This document shows, in pieces, positions 25,726 to 28,938 of a stretch of 64,000 bases of DNA (positions are counted from its first letter, which is position 1; each line of letters starts with the position of its first letter). The notes beneath the pieces were generated by a model, which was not told the origin of the DNA, did no database searches, and saw only the letters and a list, made by a program, of their open reading frames with translations. Origin of the DNA: an uncultured Opitutales bacterium (GTDB taxonomy: Bacteria; Verrucomicrobiota; Verrucomicrobiia; Opitutales; Intestinicryptomonadaceae); the NCBI GenBank assembly GCA_944390805.1, contig CALXQW010000027.1:1-64000 (forward strand). Reading direction: 5' to 3'. Position numbers and translations under genes: made by a program.

Positions 25726-26466
25726 TTACATCGTGAAATTTTCACCCAAATAGAATTTTCGGCTTTGCTCGTCGTTTACGAGAAAGTCGCTCGTGCCCTC
25801 GCAAAGAACGCGCCCCTCGTGTATCAGATAAGCTCTGTCAACAACACTCAAGGTCTCCCTGACGTTGTGGTCGGTAATAAGCACTCCTATGTTTTTTTTC
25901 TTCAGGCCCCTTATTATATCCTGCACCTCCGCAACGCTTATTGGGTCTACACCGCTGAAAGGCTCGTCCATGAGCAGAAACTGGGGCCTTGCGGTCAACG
26001 CGCGCGTTATCTCAAGCCTTCTGCGCTCTCCACCCGAGAGGGTGTAGGCCTTCTGCTTGGCAAGATGCCCAAGGTTGAGCTCGTCAAGCATGGATGAGAC
26101 AAACCCCTTAAGCTCTTTCTTTGGTATGGGAAGAGTCTCCGCAACGGCCATGATGTTGTCGTAAACGCTCAGCTTCCTGAAAACCGACGCCTCTTGGGGC
26201 AAATACCCTATTCCCATTCTGGAACGCATATACATCGGCACATCGGTTATATCCTTTCCGTCAAGAAAGACCTTTCCGCTCGTCGCTGGAACCAGCCCCA
26301 TTATCATATAAAAGCTAGTTGTCTTCCCGGCTCCATTCGGCCCCAGAAGGCCTACAACCTCACCCGCGTCCAAACGCAGATTAACGCCGCGCACCACCGC
26401 TCTGTGCCCGTATTCCTTCACCAGGTTTTCCGTGCGTATAAATGCCTTATTCTCGGATTTGTCCAT
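25726..26466 (-). CDS. lptB: LPS export ABC transporter ATP-binding protein LptB
   Basis: ATPase of the LptBFGC complex that drives lipopolysaccharide transport to the outer membrane. Walker A '[16 protein letters not shown]', signature '[12 protein letters not shown]', Walker B '[14 protein letters not shown]' and the switch His in '[11 protein letters not shown]' are all intact. The tyrosine-rich Q-loop segment '[17 protein letters not shown]' is typical of LptB. The frame runs 61 codons further upstream, but that part is not family-like, so I use ATG 26466, giving 246 residues, the usual size. lptA and lptC are not adjacent; hprK follows. Confidence 0.94.
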
Positions 26467-26846
26467 TTGCGAAGATATTTGAAAAAAAGCCCCCGCCTTG
26501 CAAATAAAAATTAACGCTTTATCTCTTAAAATGCACAACCTGCACAATTTTATAAGATATATTTCTATTAAATGACAGATTCTTTTATCTCCTTGATTCT
26601 TTTTACATGCAAAATGAAAATCTTGCGACTCTAAAACGCTAGAATCCACAAAAGTTTACATTGTGCCTCTTAGCGCCACGCACAATTACGCAATCTGTCC
26701 AGCAAAAATAACACCACTTATAATTAAAAAAAAGCGCGCGGAAACACGAAGTCTCCGCACGCCCCTCTAACCTCAATACATGTTAAACACACATACTCAA
26801 AATAACATACACGCCAACCAATTACAAATAATTATAGCCTATATTA
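26467..26846 (-). other. Intergenic region upstream of lptB
   Basis: About 380 bases without a supported gene. It holds the terminator of the upstream Cys-rich gene (26724-26762) and, presumably, the lptB promoter in the AT-rich part (26467-26700). I could not assign clear -35/-10 boxes and saw no RNA gene. Confidence 0.5.
26724..26762 (-). terminator. Terminator of the Cys-repeat protein gene
   Basis: On the minus strand GCGTGCGGA pairs with TCCGCGCGC (26754-26762 with 26734-26742, one mismatch) around an 11-nt loop and is followed by a run of T (complement of 26724-26733). It is about 85 nt downstream of the stop of the small secreted protein. Confidence 0.75.
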
Positions 26847-27140
26847 TTATCTGCCGCATCCTTTGCGAACTTTGCATCTCTGTTTTGCCTTAGGACAGTC
26901 CTGCGGATTTGCCGGACAGTTTTGAGCCGCCACAGAACAGTTCTGTTGGACTACCGGACAATTCTGCGCCACAGGGCAGTTTTGAACCCCTGGGCAATTC
27001 TGATTTGCCGCCGGGCAGTTTTGGGCTACCGGACAGTTATTCTGGTTGTTGCAATTTACAGTCTGCGTATCCGAATTCTGTGCATACGCGCCAAATCCGA
27101 ATCCGAGAAGAATTGTAGCAATCAAATAAGCTTTCCTCAT
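26847..27140 (-). CDS. Secreted cysteine-repeat protein (Asn-Cys-Pro repeats), unknown function
   Basis: A 97-residue protein with a clean Sec signal peptide (MRKAYLIATILLGFGFGAYA, cleavage before QN). The mature 77 residues carry 11 cysteines, and the ten from the second onward are spaced every 6 or 7 residues. Most of them sit in the unit [QN]-N-C-P-x-x, for example 'QNCPVAQNCPAANQNCPG'. The C-terminus turns basic ('KAKQRCKVRKGCGR'). A good Shine-Dalgarno (AGAGG) precedes the ATG and a strong terminator follows, so it is expressed as a single gene. I do not recognise the family. The regular Cys spacing would suit a disulfide-laddered or metal-binding repeat; that is inference. Confidence 0.75.
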   Translation of the reverse strand: MRKAYLIATILLGFGFGAYAQNSDTQTVNCNNQNNCPVAQNCPAANQNCPGVQNCPVAQNCPVVQQNCSVAAQNCPANPQDCPKAKQRCKVRKGCGR

Positions 27141-27502
27141 ATATAATACCTCTTTTAATTGAACTGTACCGTTTATAGACGCCGTTTTTTATTACTTGTT
27201 TCGTAATAATGTCTTTTTTTTTAAGCACGCTCACCATCAGAAATATATACAGACAAACAAAAACAGTTATAAGTTTATGATTATAAATTATATAATAAAT
27301 AAAATAAAACAGTTAAAAAAATTCTTACCCGCTAAAAAAATTTCTCTTTTTATCACTAAAGAGATCTAAATTTACCTTAAAAAATAAGATAAAATGCCAT
27401 AATAAATATTTTAAGGCTACAAAAACAAATATGCTTCCCTAATGCGTAAAACTACATTTTGGGAAGCATATAAGAAACACCCACCAGCGGTGCAAAAAGA
27501 AA
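27141..27502 (-). other. AT-rich intergenic region upstream of the Cys-repeat gene
   Basis: About 360 bases of very AT-rich DNA. The part near 27141-27250 should hold the promoter of the secreted Cys-repeat protein: TATAAA occurs about 35 nt upstream of its ATG on the minus strand, without a clear -35. The far end carries the thioesterase terminator. No gene seen. Confidence 0.45.
27421..27470 (-). terminator. Terminator of the thioesterase gene
   Basis: Perfect 10-bp inverted repeat TATGCTTCCC / GGGAAGCATA (27430-27439 and 27461-27470) with a 21-nt loop. On the minus strand it is followed by TTTGTTTTT. It lies about 30 nt past the thioesterase stop. Confidence 0.7.
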
Positions 27503-27889
27503 TTACTTTTTAAGCTGTTTATAGACAACTCTCGCCTGCATCGTAGCGCGAATCTCCCCGCTTTCAACCTCAGATATAACCACATCTACAACCGCTGTTT
27601 TCGGTGTCTTGGCGGAAACTTTGGCTTCGGCAATAAGTTTTTTGCCATCTTTTGCGGGAGTTAAAAAATTTATTATGGAATGGCTACTTATCGCAGCAAT
27701 ATCGTCGGTATTAGATGCTACCGCGCTTGCATAATCGGCAAGAGAAAATAGCCAGCCTCCGTGAACTATGCCCACCCCGTTTAAACAGTCGCCATTAGGC
27801 TCAGCGGATATGGTTGCGCAGTCCTCTGACTCTTTTTCAACTTTAAAATTCAAATATTGGGCAAATTTATCGTACTTAGTGTTGGACAT
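27503..27889 (-). CDS. PaaI-type hotdog-fold thioesterase
   Basis: A 128-residue acyl-CoA thioesterase of the PaaI/HGG family. The signature 'GIVHGGWLFSLADYASAVA' contains the HGG turn and the catalytic Asp of the hotdog helix. The N-terminal 'FKVEKESEDCATISAEPNG' and the C-terminal strands complete the single hotdog domain. PaaI enzymes rescue CoA from ring-hydroxylated phenylacetyl-CoA, but related proteins act on many acyl-CoAs, and no paa genes are nearby. It stands alone with its own terminator. Substrate unknown. Confidence 0.85.
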   Translation of the reverse strand: MSNTKYDKFAQYLNFKVEKESEDCATISAEPNGDCLNGVGIVHGGWLFSLADYASAVASNTDDIAAISSHSIINFLTPAKDGKKLIAEAKVSAKTPKTAVVDVVISEVESGEIRATMQARVVYKQLKK

Positions 27890-28071: not shown

Positions 28072-28938
28072 TTAAATCTTCACGCCTTCAACAGATACTA
28101 TCTTGTTGAACGCAGATATGAGCCTCTTTGTAATCTCTCCAGGTTTGCCAGTGCCAATGGGCCTCTTGTCGAGCTCAACGAGGGGTATTATCTTGGCGGC
28201 GGTTCCAGTGAGGAAACATTCGTCGGCTGTCCAGACATCGTAGCGGGTAAAATCGCGCTCAACCATCTTGAAACCTTCCTTCTCGGCAAGCTCCATAACG
28301 GCTCTGCGAGTCATTCCGCTCAGATTGCCAGCGCTTGTGGGAGGCGTGTAAACAACGCCGTCGGAAACTATAAACACATTGTCTCCGCTGCATTCGGCAA
28401 CATTGCCCTCCTGATTCAAAAGCAGGCACTCACTATAACCAAGATTCTGCGCCTCTATCTTTGCAAGTATGTTGTTAAGATAGTTCAGGCTCTTTACCAT
28501 TGGCGGAAGCGCCGCATGGCTGTTGCGCCTTGTTGGAACGGTTATTGCCTTAAGACCGTTGGTGTAAAGCTCGTCAGGATAGAGCTGTATCTGGTCGGCA
28601 ATAATTACAAGCTGAGGATCAGAACATGTCAGTGGAGAAAGCCCCAATGCGCCCTTCCCACGAGAAACCACCAACCTAATGTATCCGTCTGTCAATTTGT
28701 TTTCGCGGCAGGAGGCGCAAACCGCGTCCATAACTTCCTGCTTGCTCCAGGGCATATCAAGACATATCGCACGGGCCGATTTAAAAAGCCTGTCTATGTG
28801 CATAGGCAATCTAAATACATTTCCGCTGTACAGCCTGATTCCCTCAAATATGCCGTCGCCGTAAAGGAAACCGTGGTCGAATACAGATACTTTTGCCTCG
28901 TCCTTATCGTAAAACTTTCCGTTTATATACACTTTCAT
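28072..28938 (-). CDS. ilvE: Branched-chain amino acid aminotransferase (class IV)
   Basis: A PLP-dependent fold type IV aminotransferase, 288 residues, that interconverts Leu/Ile/Val with their 2-oxo acids. Family features are 'VFDHGFLYGDGIFEGIR', the PLP-Lys segment 'MVKSLNYLNNILAKIEA', the Glu in 'NVAECSGDNVFIV' and the 'FLTGTAAKIIPL' phosphate-binding turn. D-amino-acid transaminase and aminodeoxychorismate lyase share the fold, but 'YIRLVVSRGKGALGL' favours IlvE. It is the last gene of the ispA-fabV-ilvE run, 25 nt after fabV. Confidence 0.88.
   Translation of the reverse strand: MKVYINGKFYDKDEAKVSVFDHGFLYGDGIFEGIRLYSGNVFRLPMHIDRLFKSARAICLDMPWSKQEVMDAVCASCRENKLTDGYIRLVVSRGKGALGLSPLTCSDPQLVIIADQIQLYPDELYTNGLKAITVPTRRNSHAALPPMVKSLNYLNNILAKIEAQNLGYSECLLLNQEGNVAECSGDNVFIVSDGVVYTPPTSAGNLSGMTRRAVMELAEKEGFKMVERDFTRYDVWTADECFLTGTAAKIIPLVELDKRPIGTGKPGEITKRLISAFNKIVSVEGVKI

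Follow-up and report, generated by a model that had tools for sequence, protein, structure and literature searches.

The gene at positions 26847-27140 of the window, by which we mean the whole stretch of 64,000 nucleotides that was analysed, encodes an exported Cys-Pro repeat protein and stands alone among housekeeping genes with a terminator of its own. The features of the locus are:

25726-26460, minus strand: LptB-type LPS export ATPase, downstream neighbour
26728-26768, minus strand: intrinsic terminator hairpin followed by a T run (from folding; conserved in the ortholog)
26847-27140, minus strand: Cys-Pro repeat exported protein, 97 aa (ORF with ATG start; syntenic ortholog with dN/dS 0.074)
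26850-26891, minus strand: basic tail KAKQRCKVRKGCGR, which holds the last two Cys (ORF; two Cys and net positive charge also in the ortholog)
26892-27056, minus strand: Asn-Cys-Pro array, residues 29-83, nine Cys (ORF, Cys counts and shuffling)
27081-27140, minus strand: signal peptide, residues 1-20, with predicted cleavage between AYA and QN (sequence reading: MRK, hydrophobic core, AYA)
27149-27156, minus strand: ribosome-binding site AAAAGAGG (from sequence; GAGG also in the ortholog)
27189-27209, no strand assigned: inverted repeat TTATTAC-N7-GTAATAA upstream of the start (from sequence; weak fold, z -2.0)
27503-27889, minus strand: hotdog thioesterase (PF03061), upstream neighbour, a housekeeping gene and not part of a system
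28072-28938, minus strand: branched-chain aminotransferase, upstream neighbour

The protein consists of the signal peptide MRKAYLIATILLGFGFGAYA followed by the mature chain QNSD...GCGR, whose 77 residues include 11 Cys, seven Cys-Pro and eight Asn-Cys dipeptides. The mature chain is hydrophilic, ends in a basic tail and counts 14 Asn, 12 Gln, 11 Cys and eight each of Pro, Val and Ala, with neither His nor aromatic residues. Consecutive Cys are 6 or 7 residues apart at all ten intervals (6,6,7,6,6,7,7,7,7,6), and neither CxC nor CxxC occurs in the protein. Reading the ORF confirmed the signal peptide, the 77-residue mature part, the 11 Cys, their 6-7 residue spacing and the basic tail that an earlier note on this DNA had described; its statement that most units take the form [QN]NCPxx applies to seven of the 11 Cys at best and fails for Cys 1, Cys 7 (Cys-Ser) and the final pair, none of which precedes Pro. 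Of 200,000 random shuffles of the mature residues, one attained the Cys-Pro count and none the all-6/7 spacing or the Asn-Cys count. Cys makes up 11.3% of the protein, versus 0-3.7% of the window's other listed ORFs. TRF detected no DNA-level tandem array in the gene, so the repeat did not arise by recent expansion of the DNA.

The expression signals support the good ribosome-binding site and dedicated terminator reported earlier, as GAGG is positioned 8 nt upstream of the ATG and the terminator hairpin (26768-26728) has 18 bp and a folding energy of -27.3 kcal/mol (z -5.4; equalled by 0 of 200 shuffles). The inverted repeat at 27189-27209, whose right arm is one base different in the ortholog, is possibly an operator. 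A shared operator or regulon was sought genome-wide using a 6-base spacer (the repeat has 7) and rejected, since the search returned only two-mismatch chance matches; these were fewer than in the reversed-pattern control. The genes adjoining the Cys-Pro gene include no metal transporter and no metal-responsive regulator, and the observation that no obvious modification enzyme adjoins it holds for its neighbours in the window.

Selection, relatives and family searches

A syntenic ortholog lies in G001, a second genome of the genus (contig L047), between the thioesterase and lptB genes. The two proteins are 81% identical with synonymous sites nearly saturated, and the dN/dS of 0.074 compares with 0.007-0.041 for the neighbouring genes; the Cys-Pro gene evolves faster than its neighbours, yet purifying selection on it is clear. 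Every one of the 11 Cys is present in the ortholog while 18 other residues differ, five Cys codons carry synonymous changes, and two one-residue indels turn spacings of 7 into 6. The start region and the terminator are also conserved. With a syntenic ortholog that retains every Cys at this dN/dS, the ORF is a real, selected gene. That the Cys are kept while their spacing slips is easier to reconcile with a flexible multi-thiol ligand than with a rigid repeat fold.

Relatives were sought with a first profile of four members (G000, G001, G003 and G015, the latter two from a single-sequence search). Within the GTDB family it picked up further exported Cys-Pro proteins in G004, G007, G014 and G002, and one in G005 came from a wider profile. 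Such proteins occur in nine of the 18 readable genomes of this family (Opitutales), not counting G009, which yielded zero candidates in every search and was treated as unread rather than negative. At the level of the order, a profile search at E<=0.001 matched 6/18 family genomes versus 0/254 others (Fisher p about 3e-8), a comparison that somewhat favours the family because the profile was built from its members. The phylum sample (n=387) gave one plausible analog, a Cys-rich lipoprotein in G277; the product of L044:1501-1773 (plus strand), from another family of the phylum, is a possible analog of 90 aa with a lipobox and 13 Cys. No relatives were found in phages, plasmids or viral contigs.

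The family members carry 7-16 Cys and 3-10 Cys-Pro each, and they differ in length, Cys number, spacing and neighbours while the exported Cys-Pro-rich design is constant. Homologues across relatives and variants with different repeat numbers, both of which the earlier note had proposed to look for, are therefore present. Lipoboxes (LTAC) are clear in G003 and G004 and probable in G002; several relatives are predicted lipoproteins with CC at the cleavage site, whereas the window member lacks a lipobox. Outside the genus, a simple repeat is all that the matches share, and there shared descent is likely and independent expansion possible. In the G002 member the Cys-Pro stretch sits as a linker between the lipobox and a D-lyxose isomerase-like domain (PDB 7nzo, E 4.5e-18). 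At L036:922-1704 (minus strand), the gene for a lipoprotein with a Cys-Pro stretch fused to a D-lyxose isomerase-like domain adjoins a gene for an FGE-sulfatase domain protein.

Several other matches were discarded. Among the weak matches L005-L030 in other genomes (E 0.0002-0.8), the two inspected, L005 and L006, lay out of frame or proved unrelated; the match in G016 (L042) is out of frame in an acetolactate-synthase-like gene, that in G013 (L043) lies inside an EF-hand-like protein, and the phylum matches L045 and L046 come from repeats read in other frames.

The view that this pattern belongs to no known family stands across searches of Pfam, NCBIfam, PHROG, PADLOC and PDB. Pfam gave no convincing match (window protein to E<=10; relatives to E<=1), NCBIfam and PADLOC gave nothing convincing, and no metallothionein family was matched in Pfam or NCBIfam. 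Matches to PDB profiles (Nab2, p300) had E values of 0.15 or worse and those to PHROG were weak (best E 0.003), and both were rejected. AlphaFold, run on seven mature members with a shallow alignment and with metals and disulfides not modelled, returned no fold and a pLDDT of 34.5 throughout; the prediction gives no support for a folded Cys ladder. We regard the Cys-Pro protein as a lineage-restricted form of secreted Cys-rich protein.

Redox setting and alternative roles

DsbA and VKOR domains were found in 0/19 family genomes, with control genomes positive for both; several of the 19 are incomplete, and G009 among them is probably unread. Given these concordant negatives, a standard oxidising pathway, for which DsbA and VKOR were searched, is unlikely in the family's genomes. 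DsbD_TM was found in 17 of the 19, including G000. According to PMC12453122, obligate anaerobes tend to keep Cys out of the proteins that they export, and we assume an anaerobic lifestyle for this lineage; an exported, conserved product that is one-seventh Cys, in genomes with no recognised disulfide-making enzyme (DsbA, VKOR), is an exception that begs a reason.

This setting bears on the proposal of a disulfide-ladder surface peptide, in which Cys paired within or between chains would give the envelope a tough layer or stack into a Cys-ladder beta-helix; the models are chlamydial OmcA and beetle antifreeze proteins. The 6-7 spacing does resemble the 6-residue Cys spacing of the antifreeze repeats, some relatives are predicted lipoproteins like OmcA, and an odd number of Cys would leave one for intermolecular bonding. 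The lack of DsbA and VKOR and the presence of DsbD nevertheless weaken the proposal, as do a spacing that is irregular and slips between 6 and 7 in orthologs, the lack of a predicted fold or of any member matching those families in Pfam, and, for a ladder, the odd Cys number itself, and we regard disulfide-linked structure as unlikely. OmcA, a 9 kDa Cys-rich outer-membrane lipoprotein from the same superphylum, is likewise small and exported, but it has no sequence match to the window member, which lacks a lipobox and belongs to a family whose genomes yielded neither oxidising enzyme. The beetle antifreeze repeat is TCTxSxNCxxAx (PMC8038014). Although these too are exported repeat proteins with a Cys every six residues, that 12-residue repeat does not occur in the window protein, which has no TxT face.

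A Sec signal peptide, a repeated Cys motif and small size are also the design of bufferins and oxazolins (PMC12452194), peptides modified by MNIO enzymes, and the product could be the precursor of a Cys-modified peptide (RiPP) such as a bufferin-type copper metallophore. A match to the BufA2 model points the same way, but at 9.8 bits it is far below the cut-off of 60, the motif is NCPxxx rather than EGKCG, and the MNIO enzyme (PF05114) was found in 0/19 family genomes while two control genomes were positive. With no modification enzyme beside the gene in the window either, the idea of a substrate of a modifying system loses ground as far as MNIO enzymes are concerned, and we hold a RiPP precursor to be decidedly improbable.

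Cys-Pro is, in addition, the best-known haem-regulatory motif (PMC6356037), and ferrochelatase is present in 16/19 family genomes, so haem is probably made. The dipeptide alone is reported to be insufficient, however, as alanine-flanked Cys-Pro nonapeptides bound no haem (PMC6356037). In the window protein, with its seven Cys-Pro, 8 of the 11 stretches centred on Cys are without net charge, and His and Tyr are missing from all of them; we consider haem binding through such motifs very improbable.

Finally, the chain might be a low-complexity hydrophilic spacer or cell-envelope filler whose Cys have little importance as ligands, a role akin to that of the linker in the G002 member. Yet Cys is the best-kept residue between the orthologs (11/11, against 18 changes elsewhere), and anaerobes are said to avoid exported Cys (PMC12453122); we consider a spacer quite improbable.

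A possible metal-binding polythiol

The best fit, which we put forward tentatively, is an exported metal-binding polythiol whose chain is disordered and whose thiols are reduced. The small protein would be exported via Sec to the periplasm or the medium, a lipobox anchoring some of its relatives to a membrane. Its hydrophilic mature chain, with no aromatic residues, would stay disordered until ligand is bound, presenting 11 thiols 6-7 residues apart, most of them set by the following proline. In a cell with no recognised thiol oxidase these would remain reduced and could coordinate metal ions of the soft or borderline class, such as Zn(II) or Cu(I), with several thiols per ion, so that the protein would buffer metal outside the cytoplasm in the manner of a metallothionein. 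We infer the reduced state, the metal binding, the choice of metal and the location.

Several lines of evidence argue for metal binding. The Cys are kept over their spacing, the relatives vary around a constant design and no fold is predicted; DsbA and VKOR were not found, DsbD_TM is widespread, and Cys-rich export runs against the trend among anaerobes; and in one genus, g3, the gene adjoins a gamma carbonic anhydrase gene. With no DsbA, VKOR or MNIO and with DsbD in most genomes, a disulfide ladder or an MNIO-made metallophore is less likely than a reduced metal-binding polythiol, which leaves the metal-binding peptide as the best remaining of the three roles offered by the earlier note, although it is not proven. 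Against metal binding stand the lack of an adjacent metal transporter or regulator, the restriction of the carbonic anhydrase link to g3, and the absence from the window protein of His, CxC and CxxC, Cys motifs of the latter kind being found in many metallothioneins.

Metallothioneins of the SmtA/BmtA type have His and clustered Cys motifs. They are small, Cys-rich and hydrophilic like the window protein, which differs in being exported, in its evenly spaced Cys-Pro and in having no family match; PMC8790569 describes the bacterial metallothioneins as cytosolic. It is possible, if rather doubtful, that we are dealing with a family of exported, unfolded Cys-Pro polythiols, confined to a single Opitutales lineage, that hold metal in a periplasm with no recognised thiol oxidase and are unlike described families. 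Should the protein prove to buffer metal, it would be a simple counterpart to bufferins that needs no enzyme.

In genus g3 the Cys-Pro gene lies 29-88 bp downstream of the gamma carbonic anhydrase gene in 3/3 genomes, an arrangement seen only there and absent in the window's genus; because gamma carbonic anhydrase is a metalloenzyme, the adjacency points to metal, in g3 only. The gamma carbonic anhydrase ortholog of G007 (192 aa), which the Cys-Pro gene directly follows just as it does those at L003 and L041, has no Cys/His-rich extension. Tails containing 12-13 Cys and 10-14 His occur on two of the three g3 enzymes. The gamma carbonic anhydrases at L003:1757-2620 and L041:1800-2705 (both minus strand) have a C-terminal extension of ~100 residues that is rich first in Cys and His and then in Lys and Ala.
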